Source of the DNA: Bacteroidaceae bacterium
Lineage (GTDB): Bacteria > Bacteroidota > Bacteroidia > Bacteroidales > Bacteroidaceae
Direction: 5' to 3'
NCBI GenBank assembly: GCA_017464815.1
Contig: JAFTYI010000034.1
Location: 1-41,303 of the forward strand
Length of the DNA stretch: 41,303 nt
Below the pieces are notes generated by a model, which saw only the letters and a program-made list of their open reading frames with translations, was not told the origin of the DNA and searched no databases. The translations under genes and the position numbers were made by a program. Numbering within the stretch: position 1 is the stretch's first letter; every line of letters starts with the position of its first letter. Positions 326 through 15,133 of this stretch are shown piece by piece.

Positions 326-3277
326 TTAAGGCTTCAACACGACTCCCAGGTTGCGCTTGCCATCCATCTTCACCGTCAGGGGTTTGTCGAAGCGGACGTG
401 GCGGAGGAAGCGGGTCTCTTCAACGGCGGGCAGGGAGTCGAGGAAGGCTTGGTCGTAGACTCCGTCGCCGCAGTAGGCGTTGATGGTGAAGTAACCTACG
501 CCAAAGGAGGTGAGGTTCTGGAAGAAGTGGGTGCCCTGACTGGGGTCGACGCGATAGTTGGTGAGGCCGGCTTCGACGATGACGCGGGCTGCCGAGATGT
601 GGGGCCACTTGACGGGGATGCCGAGCCACGTGTCGCTGCTGCCCCAACGGCCGGGGCCTACGAGGATGTAGTTCTTGCCCTCGTCGAGGAAACGGCGGTT
701 GAGTTGCTCGATGTCGTAGGCTATCAGTTGGTTGTTCGAGGCCGAGTAGCCTTCGGTCTTGACGTAGATGACGTCCTGAATGTCGCTGACGATGCCGTGG
801 CCCAGGGAGTTGGAGGAGCGCAGGATGGTCTCCTCGTCCTTCACGAGGGTGAGGTCTTCGTCGAGCATCTCCTTGCTGTCCACGATGGGGCGGATTTGCA
901 GGAGGTAGAAGGTGCCGGTGTTGTCGGGGTTGAGCTTCACGGCAAACTCTATCTCAACGGGGCGGCGCATCTCGCCCTGCCCGTAGGTCTGCACCAGTTG
1001 GAGGATTTTGGCCAGGGGGAAGGCGTCGTGTTGCAGGATGTTGGCAAAGGTCACCAGCTTGCGTCCGCCGGGCCAGATGCCGTCGCGGATGACCATGTCG
1101 TAGGGGTCGTAGGTGGAGGCGATGAGGGCAAGCGAGCCTTCGGCCTCGGCGTCCCTGACGTGGAGCTTGAGCAGGTTGAAGCCGTCGTCGATGGAGAAGT
1201 TGCTGCCGGCGTTCTTCATGTCGAGGGCATAGAAGTGGGTCTGTGTCTCGCGCAGGGCAATCTCCATCTCGCTGGTCTGCAACACCTGGTGGGGGTGATA
1301 GGGACACATGCGCAGGGTGAGTCCGCCATCCACGATGTATTTGCCCAGTCCGAGGGCGAGGCTGACGGTGCCTTCCTCGGCCTTCTCGTCGCCGATGGGA
1401 TAGTAGTTGAGCGAGCGGGCCACGCCGCTGATGTTGGGGTAGAAGTGGTCGCCATAGCGTGTGCCCACCACCTCTTGCAGGATGACGGCCATCTTCTCCT
1501 GGTCGATGACGTTGCTGGTGGCCTGCATGTAGGCTTTGCTGTCGCGATAGTAGACGGAGGCGTAGACGCCCTTGATGGCGTCGCTGAGCATGCGCAGCAT
1601 CTCGTACTTGTCCTCCAGATAGGGAATCATGTAGGTGGAGTAAATGCCTGCAAAGGGCTGATAGTGAGAATCTTCCAAGAGGCTGGACGAGCGGATGGCG
1701 ACGGGCGACTTCACCACGTCGAAGAAGGCGAAGAAGTCCTCCACCAGGCGGTCGGGCAACTTGGCACGCAGGAAGTGGCGCAGGATTTCCTCGTCGCTGG
1801 CATCGCTGAGGGCGATTTGGTAGAGGTTGTTCATGTCCATGAACTCGTCGAAGATGTCGGTGCAGAGGACGACGGTCTTGGGGATGGCCACGCGGGCATT
1901 CTCCAGTTCCTCGAACTCCTGGTGGCGCATCACCATGTTGTCGATGAAGGCGAGGCCACGGCCCTTGCCTCCGAGGGAGCCTTCGCCGATGCGGGCAAAG
2001 TTGGAGTAGCGGTCGAAGCGGTCGCGTTGGAAGACGGCCACCACGCCCTGGTTCTTCATCTTGCGGTACTTCACGATGGCCTCGAAGATGATTTGGCGGT
2101 GGGCATCCACGTCGTCGAGCGACTTCCAGGTAATCTCCTTCAGGAACTCGGCCACGGGGAACATGGCGCGGGAGTAGAGCCAGCGGCTCACGTGGTTGCG
2201 GCTGATGTGATAGAGCAGCAGTTCGTGGGGGATGGTGAAGATGTTCTCCTGCAGCTCCTTCAGGTTGTGGATGCGCACCACCTCCTCGCCCGTGTGGGGG
2301 TTGCGGAAGACGAAGTCGCCGAAGCCGAAGTTGTCCGACACGGTTTCGCGCAGGTCGACGTCCATCTTCTTGGAGTTCTTGTCAACGAAGCTCACGCCCA
2401 AACGGAAGGCTTCGAGCTTGTTTTCGCTCTCGGCCGATTGCAGGATGAGGGGCAGGTATTCGTCGCGCCGGTGAATCTCTTCGATGAGCTGTATGCCGGC
2501 CCGCGGGTCGACCTTGCCATCCTTGGGGAAGCGGGCGTCGGTGATGACGCCCAGCATGTTGGACGAATACTTGTTGTAGAGTGCCATCGCCTCCTCGTAG
2601 CTGCGGGCCAACACGATTTTCGGACGGCCGCGCATGCGCAGGGTGCGCTGGTGGGCGTTCAGGGCCTCGGTGGCGAACACCTGGCTTTGGCGGAGCACGA
2701 ACTTATAGAGATTGGGGAGCACCGAGGAGTAGAAGCGGATGGAGTCCTCCACCAAGAGGATCATCTGCACACCCACCTCGTTGATGTCGTGCTCGAGGTT
2801 CATCTTGTCCTCGATGAGTTTGATGATGGAGAGCAGCAGGTCGGTGTTTCCCAACCAGCAGAAGACGTATTCAAAGATGCTCAAGTCCTCGTTCTGCATG
2901 CGCCGGGTGATGCCGTGGGAAAAGGGGGTGAGCACCACGATGGGCGTGTCGGCATACTGTTGCTTGACGCTGCGGGCAATGTCGAAGGCATCGTTGTTGT
3001 CGGTGCCCGGCATACAGATGACGAGGTCAAAGGTGGTGGTAGCCAGTTTCTCCTGTGCCTCCTCCATGGTGGATGCCTGGGTGAAGCGTGGCGGATAGCG
3101 AAGGCTGAGGTTCATGTACTCGTTGAAAATCTTCTCGTCCACGCGCCCGTCGTCCTCCAGCATGAAGGCATCGTAGGGGTTGGCAATGAGAAGCACGTTG
3201 AAGATACGCCGCGTCATCAGGTTGGCAAACGACGTATCCTTGAAGTAGAGCTGATTCAGTTTATACTTGCTAAGCAT
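326..3277 (-). CDS. PEP/pyruvate-binding (PPDK_N) protein with receiver-like N-terminal domains
   Basis: A 983-residue protein. Two receiver-like segments come first, at about 25-150 and 170-310; the second has LLVEDS and GVITDARFP, the usual acidic-pair and phospho-acceptor positions. A PPDK_N ATP-grasp nucleotide-binding domain follows at about 425-800, with LGGKGRGLAFID, AIRSSSLLEDSHYQPFAGIY and FYLLQIRPIVD. The last about 180 residues contain GPGRWGSSDTWLGIP. The phospho-histidine swivel domain and the PEP-utilising TIM barrel of PEP synthase and PPDK are not visible, so the common label 'PEP synthase' is doubtful; it may be an ATP-dependent phosphotransferase responding to a signal. It has its own promoter just upstream, separate from the his genes. 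Start ATG at 3277. Confidence 0.85.
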   Translation of the reverse strand: MLSKYKLNQLYFKDTSFANLMTRRIFNVLLIANPYDAFMLEDDGRVDEKIFNEYMNLSLRYPPRFTQASTMEEAQEKLATTTFDLVICMPGTDNNDAFDIARSVKQQYADTPIVVLTPFSHGITRRMQNEDLSIFEYVFCWLGNTDLLLSIIKLIEDKMNLEHDINEVGVQMILLVEDSIRFYSSVLPNLYKFVLRQSQVFATEALNAHQRTLRMRGRPKIVLARSYEEAMALYNKYSSNMLGVITDARFPKDGKVDPRAGIQLIEEIHRRDEYLPLILQSAESENKLEAFRLGVSFVDKNSKKMDVDLRETVSDNFGFGDFVFRNPHTGEEVVRIHNLKELQENIFTIPHELLLYHISRNHVSRWLYSRAMFPVAEFLKEITWKSLDDVDAHRQIIFEAIVKYRKMKNQGVVAVFQRDRFDRYSNFARIGEGSLGGKGRGLAFIDNMVMRHQEFEELENARVAIPKTVVLCTDIFDEFMDMNNLYQIALSDASDEEILRHFLRAKLPDRLVEDFFAFFDVVKSPVAIRSSSLLEDSHYQPFAGIYSTYMIPYLEDKYEMLRMLSDAIKGVYASVYYRDSKAYMQATSNVIDQEKMAVILQEVVGTRYGDHFYPNISGVARSLNYYPIGDEKAEEGTVSLALGLGKYIVDGGLTLRMCPYHPHQVLQTSEMEIALRETQTHFYALDMKNAGSNFSIDDGFNLLKLHVRDAEAEGSLALIASTYDPYDMVIRDGIWPGGRKLVTFANILQHDAFPLAKILQLVQTYGQGEMRRPVEIEFAVKLNPDNTGTFYLLQIRPIVDSKEMLDEDLTLVKDEETILRSSNSLGHGIVSDIQDVIYVKTEGYSASNNQLIAYDIEQLNRRFLDEGKNYILVGPGRWGSSDTWLGIPVKWPHISAARVIVEAGLTNYRVDPSQGTHFFQNLTSFGVGYFTINAYCGDGVYDQAFLDSLPAVEETRFLRHVRFDKPLTVKMDGKRNLGVVLKP

Positions 3278-3312
3278 CTTACACCTTATTTATATACATT
3301 AAATACTATTTA

Positions 3313-3344
3313 CAAACATAGTTCGAATAGGGAGATTCCCCAAC
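3313..3344 (-). promoter_or_regulatory. Promoter of the PPDK_N-domain gene
   Basis: On the minus strand the -7 box TATGTTTG (3320-3313) fits TAnnTTTG. GTTG lies 20 bp upstream (3344-3341), one base off the -33 TTTG. Transcription would start near 3306, about 28 nt before the ATG. Confidence 0.6.
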
Positions 3345-3366
3345 AATTCCCGATGAGATTGTCCAA

Positions 3367-3449
3367 GGGGCATAATGACCCTCCGTTGCGAGTCATAATG
3401 ACTCATGACCACGGGTCATAATGACTCTTGCTCATGGGTCATAATGACC
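3367..3449. repeat. 23-bp-period palindromic tandem array between hisC and the PPDK_N gene
   Basis: Four copies of the core CATAATGAC are spaced exactly 23 bp apart. Three sit in odd-centred palindromes, such as GGGTCATAATGACCC and GAGTCATAATGACTC. The spacers between the cores vary. The array lies downstream of hisC and upstream of the next promoter. Confidence 0.8.
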
Positions 3450-3543
3450 CTTAAAACGCCCCCTTTTTGCCTCTTTTCACACGTTTCACACGCATAAAGA
3501 GGAGGGGTCAGCAGAATTGCAAATTAATCTTTACACCCACCAC

Positions 3544-4596
3544 TTACCGCAGGAAGGCACGCATGGCCTCCATCAGTGCATCGTTCTCCTCGGGGGAGCC
3601 CACGGTGATGCGCAGGCAGTTGGCACAGAGTTGCACACGATGGCGGTTGCGCACGATGATGCCCTGGGTGAGCAGGTAGTCGTAAAGCGCCTGAGCATCC
3701 CTCACACGCACCAACACGAAGTTGGCATCTGAGGGAAAGACATGGCTAGTATCGGGATATTCCGTTAAAGAAGCTATCAGACGGGTGCGCTCGGCCTTGA
3801 GCAGCGCCACCCACTTCACAATCTGTCCGTAGTCGGCCAACACCTCCAGCGCCTGACGCTGGGTGAGGACGTTCACGTTGTAGGGGTACTTCACCTTGTT
3901 GAACAGCCCTATCACCTCGGGCGAGGCAAGGGCTATGCCCAAGCGGATGCCGGCCGAAGCCCACGCCTTCGAGAAGGTCTGCAACACGATGAGCCTCGGG
4001 AAGTCGGCCAACAGGCGGGCAAACGAGGGGGCGTCCATGAAGTCGGCATACGCCTCGTCCACCACCACCATGCCTTCGAAGCGGGTGAGCACCTTCATCA
4101 GCTCGTCGCGCTCGAGGCACTGCCCCGTGGGGTTGTTGGGCGAGCAGAGGAAGATGGCCTTGGTGTGCCCATCCACGGCCGCCAGCAGGGCGTCGGCACT
4201 GAAGCGGAAGTTGCCCGCCTCATCCGTGGCCAAAGGCACCGGGCGGTAGGCCACGTTGTTCACGTCGGCACACACCTCGTACATGCCGTAGGTGGGGGCT
4301 ATGCTCACCACATTGTCCACCCCCGGTTCACAGAAGATGCGGAAGACGAGGTCGATGGCCTCATCGCTTCCGTTGCCCAGGAAGATGCACTCCTCCTCCA
4401 CCCCCTTGATGGGAGCCAACAGGCGCTTCACCTCCGTCTGCAAAGGGTCGGGATAGCGGTTGTAGGGTTCGTGATAGGGACTTTCGTTGGCGTCGAGAAA
4501 CACCTTGGCATCAAACCCCTTGTACTCATCGCGAGCCGAAGAGTAGGGCTTCAAGCTCCAGATGTTGGGGCGAACGATATCTTGTAGAGTTTTCAT
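3544..4596 (-). CDS. hisC: Histidinol-phosphate aminotransferase
   Basis: About 350 residues, the normal length for this PLP fold-type I enzyme. It converts imidazole-acetol phosphate plus glutamate to L-histidinol phosphate. Visible motifs are the substrate-side [15 protein letters not shown], the cofactor-binding [18 protein letters not shown] (the PLP-pyridine Asp), and [15 protein letters not shown], which holds the Schiff-base Lys. The start [10 protein letters not shown] at 4596 is preferred; an ATG two codons upstream (4602) is also possible. It follows hisD with a gap of about 40 bp in the same operon. In other Bacteroides I would expect hisB next, but it is not here. Confidence 0.95.
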
Positions 4597-6013: not shown

Positions 6014-6865
6014 TTACAATATCATCTTCTCAATGGGCAACACCAGTATTCCCTCGGCACCCAACGCCTTCAGTTTGCCGATGATTTCCCAAAAACGCTT
6101 CTGGTCGAGCACGGTGTGCACCGAGCTCCACCCCTCCTGTGCAAGGGGCATCACCGTGGGGCTTTTCATGCCGGGAAGCACGTCGATGATTTCCTTCAGC
6201 TTCTCGGTGGGGGCATTCATCAGCACATACTTCTTGTCCTCGGCCATCTTCACCGCCTCGATGCGAAAGAGCATCTCCTCCAGCACCTCGCGCTTCTCGG
6301 GGCTAAGGTTCTTGTTGCCGATGAGCAGTGCCTCTGACTTCATCACCACCTCCACCTCGCGCAAGTTGTTGCTCACGAGTGTCGAACCTGAGCTGACGAT
6401 GTCGAAGATGGCGTCGGCCAACCCGATGCCGGGGGCAATCTCCACCGAGCCGGTGATGACGTGAATGTCGGTCTTCACCCCGTTCTTTGCCATGAAGTCC
6501 TTCAGGATTTCGGGATACGAGGTGGCTATCTTCTTGCCTTGAAACCACTTCAAGCCCGTGTATTCGATGGCGGCAGGGATGGCCAACGACAAGCGGCACT
6601 TGCTGAATCCCAAGCGACGGATAACCTCGGCATCCTCCTTGCGCTCGAGATACTCGTTTTCACCCACAATGCCCAAGTCGGCCACACCGCTGGCTACTGA
6701 CTGGGGAATGTCGTCGTCGCGCAGGAAGAGCACCTCAACGGGGAAGTTGGTGGATTGCACCAACAGGGTTCTTTTCGACGAACTCAACTTGATGTCCGAC
6801 TCGCGCAAGAGCTCCATTGTCTCTTCATAGAGGCGGCCTTTGGATTGTACTGCAATTCTAAGCAT
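6014..6865 (-). CDS. hisG: ATP phosphoribosyltransferase, long form
   Basis: A 283-residue protein catalysing the first and committed step of histidine synthesis: ATP plus PRPP to phosphoribosyl-ATP. The catalytic part has LRIAVQSKGRLYEETMELL, SGVADLGIVGENEYLER and DAIFDIVSSGSTLVSNNL (the PRPP loop). The C-terminal about 75 residues (VLMNAPTEKLKEIIDVLPG to the end) form the ACT-like domain of the long, homo-hexameric HisG, which does not need HisZ and is inhibited by histidine. It is first in the operon, behind the His-codon leader and terminator at 6939-7068. Confidence 0.96.
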   Translation of the reverse strand: MLRIAVQSKGRLYEETMELLRESDIKLSSSKRTLLVQSTNFPVEVLFLRDDDIPQSVASGVADLGIVGENEYLERKEDAEVIRRLGFSKCRLSLAIPAAIEYTGLKWFQGKKIATSYPEILKDFMAKNGVKTDIHVITGSVEIAPGIGLADAIFDIVSSGSTLVSNNLREVEVVMKSEALLIGNKNLSPEKREVLEEMLFRIEAVKMAEDKKYVLMNAPTEKLKEIIDVLPGMKSPTVMPLAQEGWSSVHTVLDQKRFWEIIGKLKALGAEGILVLPIEKMIL

Positions 6866-6938
6866 AATATTCTTCTATGTATTTTATCTTCTATTTTCTT
6901 CTATTTCCTTGTCTGTTCACCCTTGACCGGCAACAATG

Positions 6939-6974
6939 AAAAAAGGAAGCTCCCCTCATCCGGCAAAGCTCCCC
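6939..6974 (-). terminator. Attenuator terminator of the his leader, with overlapping antiterminator
   Basis: On the minus strand GGGGAGCT (6974-6967) can pair with AGCTTCCT (6950-6943), including G-U pairs, and six U follow (6944-6939). The 5' arm overlaps AGCTTTGCCG (6970-6961), which can instead pair with CGGTAGGCT (7016-7008) just after the leader-peptide stop. CGG of that segment can also pair with CCG inside the peptide's end. This is the 1:2, 2:3, 3:4 arrangement of an attenuator. The folds were found by eye, with no energy calculation. Confidence 0.65.
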
Positions 6975-7020
6975 ATTATTTTGTTATCCGACACAAACGC
7001 AACATGCAGCCTACCGAAAC

Positions 7021-7068
7021 TTATTCGACGGGAAGATGATGATGGCGATGTGTGGTTGTCAGATTCAT
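7021..7068 (-). CDS. hisL: Histidine leader peptide MNLTTTHRHHHLPVE
   Basis: A 16-codon reading frame (15 residues plus TAA) starts about 18 nt after the predicted transcription start of the hisG operon. Four of five consecutive codons are His (H-R-H-H-H), preceded by three Thr codons. This is the hallmark of a leader peptide whose translation measures charged tRNA-His, as in the enterobacterial his operon. It is followed by alternative hairpins and an intrinsic terminator before hisG. The symbol is given by analogy of role, not by sequence homology. Confidence 0.75.
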   Translation of the reverse strand: MNLTTTHRHHHLPVE

Positions 7069-7092
7069 ATTGCTCAATCTTTTAATTTGCCG

Positions 7093-7124
7093 CAAAATTA
7101 CATCGTTTAATTGACAAATGCAAA
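7093..7124 (-). promoter_or_regulatory. Promoter of the hisG-hisD-hisC operon
   Basis: On the minus strand TTTG at 7124-7121, a 20-bp spacer and TAATTTTG at 7100-7093 are a full match to the Bacteroidetes consensus. Transcription would start near 7086, leaving a leader of about 220 nt before hisG. Confidence 0.8.
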
Positions 7125-7166
7125 CAATCTAGCAGATTTTTCTTTCAAATGTATCTTTTTTACGCT

Positions 7167-8597: not shown

Positions 8598-10646
8598 ATG
8601 TATAACATCATCCAACTCAGAGAGAAAGAGCTGAGCGAATTGCAAGAAATAGCCAACGAACTGGGCATCAAGAAGAGCAGTTCATTGGAAAAAGACGACC
8701 TGATATACAAGATTCTGGACGAGCAGGCCATTGCCGAAGCCGCCAAGAAATCTTCCGAAACTCCGAAGAAACGTTCAAGAGTGACCGTCAAACAGGCGGC
8801 AGGAAAGGTGTACACCGCCACACAAGACAAAGCCAAGAAGATTGACGAACCTCAGAAAACCGTGATAACCCCCGCGGTAACCGAAGAGCCGCAACCCGCC
8901 CAACCGGTGGCCACCGCACCTGAAGCAGAAGCCACAGAAGCCCCCGCACCCAAAAAGCGCGGACGCAAGCCGGGAAGCAAGAACAAACCCAAAGAGCCGG
9001 TAGCCACCGAAACGGCACCTGCGGAAGAGAAGGCTGAAACTCCCGTTGAGAATCCGGTCAACAACGTGCAAGAGGCCACCCTACCCTTCGCCGAAGAGCC
9101 TGCAACTGAGCCCGCCGAAGCCACCGAAGCAATCCAAGCAAAGGAGGTGACCAACGAGGCAAACGAACCTGCAGAAGCCGAAGCCCCCGCTGTAGCCGAA
9201 ACTCCCGCACAAGAGGAGGGCGCCACGGAAGAAGCAAAGAACGAAGAGGCTCCCCAAAACACGAAAACGGGAGACGTCAATAGCGACCTGCCCGAAATCC
9301 TCTTCCAGAATCCCTACGCCACCGAGGACTTCATCCCCATCGAAGACCTGCCCTCAGAAGGCAACCTGGAGATTCCCGAAGAACTCTACGGAAAATTCGA
9401 AGCAACAAAGGTGGAGATGCAGGCTGCCAAAGCCCTGCAACAACAACGCCAGAGACTCGAACAATTCCCCGACTACTTCGATGACCAGATGCCCATGCCC
9501 GTACAACAACCCGAGAAGAACTACGATTTCGAAGGCATTCTCGAAGGCACCGGTGTGCTGGAAATCATGAGCGATGGCTACGGATTCCTCCGCTCGGCCG
9601 ACTACAACTACCTCTCTTCACCCGACGACGTATACGTGTCACAGGCACAAATCAAACTCTTCGGTTTGAAGACGGGCGACGTGGTGGAAGGCCCCATCCG
9701 CCCGCCCAAGGAAGGCGAAAAGTACTTCCCGCTGGTGAAGGCAACAAAAATCAATGGCAAAAGCCCCGCAGTGGTGCGCGACCGTGTGCCCTTCGAACAC
9801 CTCACTCCCCTCTTCCCCGAGGAGAAGTTCAAGCTCTGCACCGGACGTGGCGACAACCTCTCTGCCCGCGTGGTAGACATGTTCGCCCCCATCGGAAAGG
9901 GACAACGTGCCCTCATCGTGGCTCAGCCAAAGACAGGTAAGACCATCCTGATGAAGGACATCGCCAACGCCATCGCAGCCAACCATCCCGAGGCTTACAT
10001 GATTATGCTCCTCATCGACGAACGTCCCGAAGAGGTGACCGACATGGCCCGTAGCGTCAATGCCGAGGTAATCGCCTCGACCTTCGACGAACCGGCCGAA
10101 CGCCACGTGAAGATTGCCGGCATTGTGCTCGAAAAAGCCAAGCGCATGGTCGAGTGTGGCCACGACGTGGTCATCTTCCTCGACTCCATCACCCGTCTGG
10201 CCCGCGCCTACAACACCGTATCGCCCGCCTCGGGAAAAGTTCTCTCAGGAGGTGTCGACGCCAACGCCTTGCACAAGCCCAAGCGCTTCTTCGGAGCCGC
10301 ACGTAACATCGAAGGCGGAGGTTCGCTCACCATCATCGCCACCGCCCTCATCGACACCGGCTCAAAGATGGACGAAGTGATTTTCGAGGAATTCAAGGGC
10401 ACAGGTAACATGGAGCTCCAGCTCGACCGCAACCTGTCGAACAAGCGCATCTTCCCCGCCGTCAACATCGTGGCCTCAAGCACGCGTCGCGACGACCTGT
10501 TGCACGACAAGCAGACGCTCGACCGCATGTGGATTCTCCGCAAGTTCCTCTCCGACATGAATCCCATCGAAGCAATGGATTTCGTAAAAGGCCGCCTCGA
10601 ACAGACGCGCGACAACGAAGAATTCCTGATGAGCATGAACTCATAA
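8598..10646 (+). CDS. rho: Transcription termination factor Rho with long disordered insertion
   Basis: A 682-residue protein, against about 420 for E. coli Rho. Residues 1-45 are the Rho_N helical domain ([18 protein letters not shown]). Residues about 50-230 are a low-complexity Ala/Glu/Pro/Thr region with an AT-hook-like [12 protein letters not shown] near 118. The cold-shock-type RNA-binding domain begins near 315 ([15 protein letters not shown]). The hexameric ATPase follows, with Walker [13 protein letters not shown] near 442, [27 protein letters not shown] and the Q-loop/R-loop region [22 protein letters not shown]. Rho ends untranslated RNAs. The disordered insertion is known in Bacteroides, where it has been linked to phase separation of B. 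thetaiotaomicron Rho. A stem-loop terminator follows the gene. Confidence 0.97.
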
Positions 10647-10955: not shown

Positions 10956-11030
10956 GGGCGTTTAGCTCAGCTGGTTCAGAGCATCTGCCTTACAAGCAGA
11001 GGGTCGGCGGTTCGAATCCGTCAACGCCCA
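10956..11030 (+). tRNA. tRNA-Val (anticodon TAC), first copy
   Basis: A 75-nt cloverleaf. The acceptor GGGCGTT pairs with AACGCCC; the D-arm is TAGCTCAGCTGGTTCAGAGC; the anticodon stem CTGCC/AGCAG carries loop TTACA with anticodon TAC; the T-arm has GGTTCGAATCC; the discriminator base is A. CCA is not encoded. Confidence 0.95.
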
Positions 11031-11074
11031 CTCAACGAAAACTGACTCTTTCGATTCAACAAAGCAAAACCTTC

Positions 11075-11149
11075 GGGCGTTTAGCTCAGCTGGTTCAGAG
11101 CATCTGCCTTACAAGCAGAGGGTCGGCGGTTCGAATCCGTCAACGCCCA
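11075..11149 (+). tRNA. tRNA-Val (anticodon TAC), second identical copy
   Basis: Identical in sequence to the copy at 10956-11030 and 44 bp downstream of it. Both probably come from one transcript starting at the promoter at 10893-10924. Confidence 0.95.
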
Positions 11150-11156
11150 CCGAAGC

Positions 11157-11237: not shown

Positions 11238-12599
11238 ATGGCTGCAAAACCTGGTATTCCAAAGGGGACACGTGACTTTTCGCCTGTAGAGATGGCGAAG
11301 CGAAACTATATCTTCAACACCATCCGCGAAGTGTATGCTCTCTATGGCTTTCAGCAGATTGAAACTCCAGCTATGGAGAACCTGTCAACCTTGATGGGAA
11401 AGTATGGTGAAGAGGGAGACAAACTCCTTTTCAAAATTCAAAATTCGGGTGATTATTTCAAAGGGCTTTCTGATGAAGAGTTGCTTAGTCGCAATGCAAC
11501 CAAGTTGGCGTCTAAATTCTGTGAGAAGGGATTGCGTTACGACCTTACGGTGCCTTTTGCCCGCTATGTTGTGATGCATCGCGAGGAGTTGGCTTTGCCA
11601 TTCAAGCGCTATCAGATACAGCCCGTATGGCGCGCCGACCGTCCGCAAAAGGGACGTTATCGCGAATTTTATCAGTGTGATGCCGATGTGGTGGGCAGTG
11701 ATTCATTGCTCAACGAGGTGGAGCTGATGCAGATTGTCGACACGGTGTTTACTCGTTTTGGCATCCGCGTGTGCATCAAAATCAACAACCGCAAGATATT
11801 GAGTGGTATCGCCGAGATTATAGGTGAAGCCGACAAGATTGTTGACATCACCGTAGCCATCGACAAGTTGGACAAGATTGGCCTCGACAATGTGAATGCA
11901 GAATTGGCTTCGAAAGGTATCAGCCAGGAGGCTATCGACAAGTTGCAACCCATTATCTTGCTCAATGGTACCAATGAAGAGAAGTTAGCGACACTGAAGA
12001 AAGAACTTTCGGCCAGTGAAGTAGGCTTAAAGGGCGTGGAGGAAAGCGAGTTTATTCTGAGTACCTTAGCAACGCTCGGATTGAAGAACGAGGTGGAGCT
12101 GGATCTTACGTTGGCTCGTGGCCTCAATTACTACACGGGTGCCATCTTTGAAGTGAAGGCTCTTGATGTTCAGATTGGTAGTATTACAGGTGGCGGACGC
12201 TATGATAACTTGACAGGTATCTTTGGTATGCCGGGCATTTCAGGAGTTGGCATTTCATTTGGAGCCGACCGCATTTTTGATGTTCTCAACCAGCTTGACC
12301 TCTATCCGAAAGAGGCCGTTACGGGCACACGCGTGCTTTTCGTTAATTTTGGAGACAAGGAGGTGGCCTACTGCTTGCCTTTGCTTGCCCGCTTGCGTGC
12401 GGCAGGAGTCTCTGTAGAGATTTATCCCGATAGCAGCAAAATGAAAAAGCAGATGGCTTATGCCAATGCAAAAAACGTTCCTTTTGTGGCAATAGTAGGT
12501 GAGAACGAAATGCTTGAGGGTAAAGTGATGTTGAAGAATATGACCACGGGAGAACAGCATTTGTTGACTGCCGACGAATTGCTCAGTGCATTAGGATAA
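11238..12599 (+). CDS. hisS: Histidyl-tRNA synthetase
   Basis: A 453-residue class II aminoacyl-tRNA synthetase that charges tRNA-His. Motif 1 region: [13 protein letters not shown]; motif 2: [22 protein letters not shown]; histidine-specific loops: [14 protein letters not shown] and [13 protein letters not shown]; motif 3: [12 protein letters not shown]. The last about 100 residues ([18 protein letters not shown] onward) are the anticodon-binding domain. The sequence [16 protein letters not shown] at the start fits the family, so the ATG at 11238 is secure. The his leader elsewhere in the window senses the product of this enzyme, but the two are not co-transcribed. Confidence 0.97.
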
Positions 12600-14974: not shown

Positions 14975-15133
14975 TAAAAAGATAAAAATTAGTGTTGGAT
15001 GCCACTCGTCTGCGGCTCCAACACTAATCCAACACAAAAACTAAACTAGACTTAACTAAACTATTCTAAATTCAGGAATTTCACAATCCCCTTTGTTGGC
15101 TGCAAAGGTAAGCACTTTTTTTGTTAACACAAA
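14975..15133 (-). ncRNA. Candidate small RNA with its own promoter and terminator
   Basis: On the minus strand a full promoter (TTTG at 15133-15130, 19 bp, TACCTTTG at 15110-15103) points into a region without a gene. About 70 nt after the expected start comes a perfect 12-bp stem (ATTAGTGTTGGA at 15028-15017 with TCCAACACTAAT at 14999-14988), and the minus strand then runs into TTTTTATCTTTTT. The plus strand has no U-run, so the terminator serves this direction only. The predicted RNA is about 115-120 nt, from about 15096 to about 14978. Its longest open frame is a few codons. I do not recognise the family. Confidence 0.6.

Follow-up and report, generated by a model that had tools for sequence, protein, structure and literature searches.

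The leader preceding hisG in the Bacteroidaceae genome studied here very probably controls the his operon by ribosome-mediated transcription attenuation. It lies on the minus strand of contig JAFTYI010000034.1 (Bacteroidaceae bacterium, assembly GCA_017464815.1), of which we analyzed a stretch of 41,303 nt, referred to below as the window. The evidence consists of the parts of the leader, their conservation among relatives, the covariation of the alternative stems and the spacing between the His codons and the antiterminator. The interest of the system is in its breadth across the sampled Bacteroidota, in the spacing rule, and in the variants that have dropped the terminator.

The his leader of the window

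A first-pass annotation of this DNA had described a full Bacteroidetes promoter, a short frame with the residues His-Arg-His-His-His, a hairpin around its stop codon, a segment complementary to the 5' arm of a U-tailed terminator, and then hisG. All of these parts agree base for base with that description, and the coordinates given for them hold (Table 1). The promoter elements TTTG and TAATTTTG, a combination that we take to be of the Bacteroidetes type, would put the transcription start near 7086, and the leader ATG (7068-7066) is 18 nt downstream of that expected start. The encoded peptide is M N L T T T H R H H H L P V E, with His at four of five consecutive codons in a 15-codon ORF upstream of hisG-hisD-hisC. 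The third of these genes is presumably hisC, judging by its position after hisG-hisD.

Table 1. Features of the his leader and operon in the window, and of other amino-acid leaders in the same genome (locus numbers precede the coordinates of the latter)
Feature	Position	Strand	Details
-33 promoter element, TTTG	7124-7121	minus	20 nt before the -7 element
-7 promoter element, TAATTTTG	7100-7093	minus	
Leader ORF, MNLTTTHRHHHLPVE	7068-7021	minus	15 codons; from sequence
Regulatory codons, CAT CGC CAT CAT CAT	7050-7036	minus	His-Arg-His-His-His
Segment 1	7032-7024	minus	Pro-Val-Glu codons; 5' arm of the 1:2 hairpin
Segment 2	7018-7008	minus	partner of segment 1 (7018-7010) or of the terminator 5' arm (7016-7008)
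Segment 3	6974-6961	minus	terminator 5' arm; antiterminator partner is 6970-6961
Intrinsic terminator	6974-6939	minus	hairpin 6974-6944, UUUUUU 6944-6939; 3' arm is segment 4
hisG	6865-6014	minus	first gene after the leader; ATG at 6865; Pfam HisG 172.9 bits, HisG_C 102.9 bits
hisD	5974-4637	minus	Pfam Histidinol_dh 583.2 bits; ORF limits as listed, true start may be internal
hisC (presumed)	4602-3544	minus	Pfam Aminotran_1_2 189.5 bits (class I/II aminotransferase)
Ile/Leu/Val leader before ilvD, MILSTNIARISSLLLVNVVVETSRA	L181:1252-1329		terminator and strong antiterminator (0/1000 shuffles)
Phe/Tyr-rich leader before pheA, MKALHTFFYCFFYYFYFSNEVKREVVCVPYR	L186:1323-1418		terminator and antiterminator (0/1000 shuffles)
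Tandem-Trp leader before trpB, MKTMMANTCWWRSYYSTSRKGSKPCISIS	L187:1003-1092		strong terminator

Three helices can be drawn in the leader RNA. In the 1:2 hairpin, CCCGUCGAA (7032-7024) is paired with UUCGGUAGG (7018-7010) at 8 of 9 positions, and the leader stop codon (7023-7021) sits in the loop. In the antiterminator, 2:3, CGGUAGGCU (7016-7008) forms nine pairs with AGCUUUGCCG (6970-6961), leaving one bulged U. The terminator, 3:4, is separated from the 1:2 hairpin by a linker, has a fold energy of -15.1 kcal/mol and ends in six U. The stretch thus contains a leader ORF with repeated codons for the product of the operon and an intrinsic terminator between that ORF and the first gene. An antiterminator that would be exposed by stalling and is exclusive with the terminator is found by comparison with relatives, the p value being 0.205 when the window is taken alone.

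With this arrangement, ribosome stalling, its timing and the response to histidine would be as follows. The promoter would yield the leader RNA. With sufficient His-tRNA, the ribosome would pass the His codons, reach the stop codon and cover segment 2, such that the terminator arms could pair and RNA polymerase would halt before hisG. Under a shortage of charged His-tRNA, it would instead stall at the His codons, where it would occupy segment 1 while segment 2 stayed free; the free segment would capture the emerging 5' arm of the terminator, the terminator would come too late, and hisG-hisD-hisC would be transcribed. If the leader were not translated at all, 1:2 and 3:4 would both be expected to form and transcription would end.

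A single copy of such a leader carries limited information. The folding energy of the window leader is ordinary (z -0.49, equalled by 54 of 200 shuffles) and was discarded as uninformative, and the antiterminator duplex is not significant in the window, being matched by 20.5% of shuffles. At least four His in six residues occur at 3 of the 909 short-ORF stops in the window, the leader ORF included. The window copy by itself is therefore not clearly beyond chance; with its relatives, it is far beyond it. The count of such stops and the fold z score are what can be said for a chance run of His codons next to a constitutive terminator, a reading to which we assign next to no probability. It is already contradicted by the comparative data, since 26 of the 34 families in a class-wide sample share the logic and the spacing while the sequences of peptide and hairpins change.

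Several other features of the neighborhood can be recorded. The gene after hisC (326-3544) encodes a PPDK_N domain, with a weaker match to a response regulator, and is not hisB; no match to hisB was obtained in the genome, which is 78.68% complete. On the opposite strand to the leader, rho (8598-10646) is the third gene beyond it, after a thioesterase gene and an L-PSP family gene. The 682-aa Rho has a long stretch between Rho_N and the RNA-binding domain that is, by eye, rich in Ala, Glu and Pro. Two tRNA-Val (TAC) genes (10956-11151) immediately precede hisS (11238-12599), and positions 14982-15096 match the Bacteroides sRNA BTnc049 (RF04179) at 84.1 bits, against a gathering threshold of 81.9.

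Conservation of the His codons, the stems and their spacing

For comparison, 180 regions upstream of hisG were assembled from 80 named loci (the best 80 of 337), 12 loci of the same genus and 88 class-wide loci. The class-wide draw covered 197 genomes, with hisG located in 89; the fragmented G027 was dropped. The three sets overlap, in that L001-L005 and L082-L086 represent the same five contigs and L081 and L109 are both the window. ORFs of 7-40 residues within 500 nt upstream of hisG were counted, and the class-wide counts use cuts of three His and a terminator score of -12 or better.

When at least four copies of one residue in six were required, His qualified in 111 of the 180 regions and the runner-up, Ser, in 22, in a sample that is redundant. 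At a laxer cut of three in six, the counts were 128 for His and 97 for Leu, and this cut by itself is weak evidence. The peptides otherwise vary widely among relatives, for example MIYTTTHHHHSPDE, MKTTSHTHHHVCTPIR and MFINQLHHHHFHYCSQAMC, so it is the His codons and not the peptide that are conserved. Among the 88 class-wide loci, 78 have a His-rich short ORF upstream of hisG and 10 do not; a few of the 78, such as that in L105, may be chance occurrences. His ORF and terminator occur together in 64 of the 88, with at least one such complete case in 26 of the 34 families, leaving 14 loci that have the His ORF and no scored terminator. Both parts were present in 36 of the 80 named loci, while 44 were without one or both. 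None of the 23 Prevotella-titled records (among L028-L080) with enough upstream sequence has a His leader with a terminator, which suggests that the attenuator may have been lost in the sampled Prevotella. Outside the class, 40 loci were chosen to cover families and HisG could be located in 27; of these, 16 have a His ORF and eight also a terminator.

The terminators are far more frequent than in shuffled sequence: scores of -15 or better were obtained in 107 of the 128 regions with a His ORF and in none of 384 shuffles, and scores of -12 or better in 112 of the 128 and in six of the 384 shuffles. After the removal of repeats, the 112 regions gave 105 distinct leaders. The promoter is also recurrent. 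Of 47 Bacteroidaceae-type leaders, 42 have a TAnnTTTG element no more than 60 nt from the leader start (shuffle rate 6.2%), as do 43 of the 58 others (shuffle rate 5.6%), and in 35 of the 47 a TTTG is found 17-23 nt upstream of a TAnnTTTG.

These counts bear on a translational alternative, in which the short ORF would alter translation of hisG, either because ribosomes reinitiate or because the start region is kept open, the hairpin being incidental. Short leader genes near structural genes have been proposed to act in this manner in Bacteroidetes, among others (PMC4833913), and the 14 class-wide loci with a His ORF and no scored terminator would fit it. However, the same source gives a Bacteroidetes peak at 11-14 nt for the distance concerned, and in the window 155 nt lie between the leader stop and hisG (PMC4833913). 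A terminator follows the His ORF in 64 of the 88 class-wide loci, and segment 2 remains complementary to the terminator arm. We consider a translational effect quite improbable and attenuation of transcription the better account.

Covariation was examined in an alignment (A1) of 46 Bacteroidaceae-type leaders including the window; 47 had been selected and L075 was left out. In this set 79.7% of the cells of helix 1:2 are paired, with two-sided changes in seven of nine pairs; the values are 89.8% and two of 10 pairs for 2:3, and 92.9% and six of 12 pairs for 3:4. For all three helices, the paired percentage and the covariation score exceed those of all 500 shuffles and of every slide, in tests that related rows in the alignment inflate, and the 46 leaders were picked because they contain both a His ORF and a terminator, a selection that favours 3:4. 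For 2:3, the count of two-sided pairs is ordinary, being matched by 189 of 500 shuffles. Its eight two-sided cells are above all shuffles, but a slide of -3 gives nine, and two slid versions of the helix match or exceed the real one in two-sided pairs or cells. A further change concerns the subgroup of the window, in which both terminator arms were altered jointly: GGAGCUUU...GGGAAGCUCC in L001 stands against AGGCUUGCC...GGUAAGCCU in most others. Despite this change, the subgroup retains 2:3 with one bulge, and the joint change of the arms is a natural compensation. The check that had been proposed for the first reading, namely that the His codons and stems should persist in relatives with compensatory changes, gave a positive outcome, in that both are kept in most relatives examined and the stems show two-sided changes.

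In all 105 distinct leaders, the sequence downstream of the last His codon was matched to the terminator 5' arm, and the best antiterminator duplex so obtained was compared with shuffles. It beats 95% of the shuffles in 71 leaders (median z -2.5 across the set) and is not significant in the other 34; in the class sample it does so in 43 of 62. Its position is set by the His codons. Segment 2 begins 11-19 nt past the last His codon in 86 of the 105 leaders, as against 19.6% of shuffles, and among the 71 significant leaders its position varies less relative to the last His codon (standard deviation 3.9 nt) than relative to the stop codon (9.1 nt). The stop codon is at or before segment 2 in 42 of the 105 leaders, the window among them, and in 63 the ORF extends into or through segment 2. 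The edge of the ribosome is about 11 nt beyond the A-site codon in E. coli footprints, and we assumed the same value here. Given this edge, both arrangements of the stop codon should leave segment 2 masked after the ribosome has moved beyond the His codons, and a constant distance from the last His codon to segment 2, wherever the stop lies, is probably the signature of a ribosome footprint.

The same spacing weighs against a leader of the T-box type, or one controlled by an RNA-binding protein, in which the His-rich ORF would be present by accident. A tRNA-binding RNA would not need constrained His codons at a constrained distance from segment 2, and no T-box was found when the whole window was scanned with Rfam at gathering thresholds or, up to an E value of 10, at 6860-7130. 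Although his genes are controlled by T-boxes and repressors in other phyla (PMC9413887), we regard such a leader as extremely unlikely here.

Whether the predicted switch is visible in folding depends on when the RNA is examined. Equilibrium folding of whole leaders in different ribosome states gave a switch in only four of the 105, one of them the window. In almost every locus and state the terminator is the preferred structure, and the shuffled control was below 0.5 in one of 105. The terminator probability of the window leader was 0.88 with no ribosome, 0.00 with the ribosome on the first His codon, 0.48 on the last and 0.88 at the stop codon. The best fold of the whole window leader contains the terminator, and that of the RNA from 7019 to 6939 contains the 2:3 helix (-23.1 kcal/mol).

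Attenuation is settled during the passage of RNA polymerase. For this reason the RNA was also folded only as far as the terminator 5' arm, at a point where the 3' arm has yet to be transcribed, and the capture of the 5' arm by upstream sequence was scored. The median score of these snapshots was 0.70 with the ribosome stalled on the last His codon, 0.67 on the first, 0.16 at the stop codon and 0.20 with no ribosome, and 0.45 in shuffles; the low value at the stop codon is partly an effect of length, the RNA being shorter, and the shuffled median for that state is 0.24. A ribosome stalled on the last His codon gave a score above the shuffled value in 98 of the 105 leaders. For the window leader the scores were 0.05 with no ribosome, 0.42 on the first His codon, 0.74 on the last and 0.35 at the stop, with a shuffle mean of 0.53, under which the value for the first His codon falls.

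Variants without a terminator and other leaders in the same genome

His leaders without a scored terminator occur in several families. They include all six loci of f39 (L125, L132, L139, L144, L155, L164) and, outside the class, all seven loci examined of f76 (L220, L236, L237, L238, L246, L248, L249). A hairpin is found among the His codons in several of the f39 and f76 leaders. By eye, weak A+U-rich hairpins with T runs are possible in L132, L139 and L144. Leaders ending in HHSS also lack a scored terminator in two of three f3 loci (L116, L150) and two of five f16 loci (L151, L154), and in the HHSS leader of L176 (f48) a scored hairpin is present but distant. In the HHSS leaders the last codons, the stop codon and the following bases together form an almost perfect palindrome (ATTCCTCCTAGGAGGAAT in L116 and its kin).

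Amino-acid leaders are not restricted to his in this genome. Leaders with a terminator and an antiterminator precede ilvD and pheA (Table 1). The third, before trpB, has its tandem Trp codons and a strong terminator, and no antiterminator was found for it (896 of 1000 shuffles were as good). By eye, no leader is seen before thrA or lysC, and a search for leuA with PF00682 returned only a partial match of 45 bits. In the class-wide genomes ilvD was matched in 16 of 60, and among 13 ilvD loci leader-like ORFs rich in Ile, Leu and Val can be seen by eye in L192, L198 and L199, and perhaps L203.

A broader reading of these observations can be put forward tentatively, with somewhat less confidence than would favour it over its negation. 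The his attenuator may be ancestral to much of the Bacteroidota and may belong to a set of leader peptides (his, ilv, phe and perhaps trp) that gauge the coupling of transcription and translation in vivo. Some lineages (f39; the HHSS leaders in part of f3 and f16; f76 outside the class) might then have kept the His leader, dropped the intrinsic terminator and come to use a different output, such as Rho-dependent termination, RNA stability or translation, by way of a hairpin lying at the stop codon or within the His codons.

Classic ribosome-mediated attenuation requires that the ribosome follow close behind RNA polymerase. The attenuator is present in 26 of the 34 families sampled in the class, and the His codons fix the spacing of its stems; together this implies coupling at least in these leaders, which offer native reporters for testing coupling in gut Bacteroides. 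They also provide a rule by which these bacteria would regulate histidine synthesis, one that the Rfam models miss, and the apparent loss in Prevotella and the terminator-less variants form a natural series for the study of how attenuators evolve.

Relation to known attenuators

Attenuation has been considered for this phylum before. A 2021 transcriptome of Flavobacterium psychrophilum gave clues of leader-peptide attenuation before amino-acid operons and described structured 5' elements of hisG and pheA that are also conserved in other Flavobacteriaceae and have no Rfam match; its available text gives no His peptide, antiterminator or wider survey (PMC9723704). In a transcriptome study of B. 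thetaiotaomicron, short ORFs reminiscent of attenuation leaders were noted, with hisG or histidine not mentioned in the portion of the report at hand (PMC7366714). The term "bacteroid" is absent from the accessible text of a 2010 survey of premature terminators (PMC2965389). Earlier predictions at hisG in gamma-proteobacteria and at hisZ in Firmicutes are cited in the available part of a 2016 paper (PMC4833913). Beyond these, a 2022 study of his regulation, as far as its main text was available, describes his attenuators in the Bacillus cereus group, Peptostreptococcaceae and Erysipelotrichales, which, like the leader described here, have three to five consecutive His codons and a terminator/antiterminator before the his genes; they belong to another phylum, and "bacteroid" does not occur in that main text (PMC9413887). 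The statement in the first-pass annotation that described his leaders are mainly proteobacterial is thus roughly right for the literature, with the qualification that, in the text available, some Firmicutes examples are also in print (PMC9413887). In the literature searched, mainly at the level of titles and the openings of abstracts, no description of a his attenuator of Bacteroidaceae was found.

The Rfam family RF00514, His_leader, covers the E. coli and Salmonella leaders and shares with the window leader a run of His codons, a U-tailed terminator before the first his gene and mutually exclusive hairpins. The alignment with the window spans all of the model (1-126) and scores 14.7 bits (E value 3.9) against a gathering threshold of 49, and no gathering match to the family was obtained in the window or in the 10 related loci scanned.

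The E. coli his leader has seven His codons and a relay of six segments, A-F. In place of this relay, the window leader has a single antiterminator helix, 2:3, that would replace 1:2 and 3:4. The enterobacterial his logic that had been suggested at first sight holds in outline, and in its architecture the leader resembles the trp type, with its three segments, more than the E. coli his leader with its six. In the trp attenuator of E. coli (trpL), helices 1:2, 2:3 and 3:4 alternate, with segment 1 in the codons of the peptide and segment 2 just after them. The window leader has the same three alternative helices and the same placement of segments 1 and 2. It differs from trpL in reading His and not Trp, and, among the 105 leaders tested though not in the window, in that the ORF runs into or through segment 2 in 63. 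The his leader of the window is, on this comparison, an additional case of a known kind of attenuator and not a new kind.
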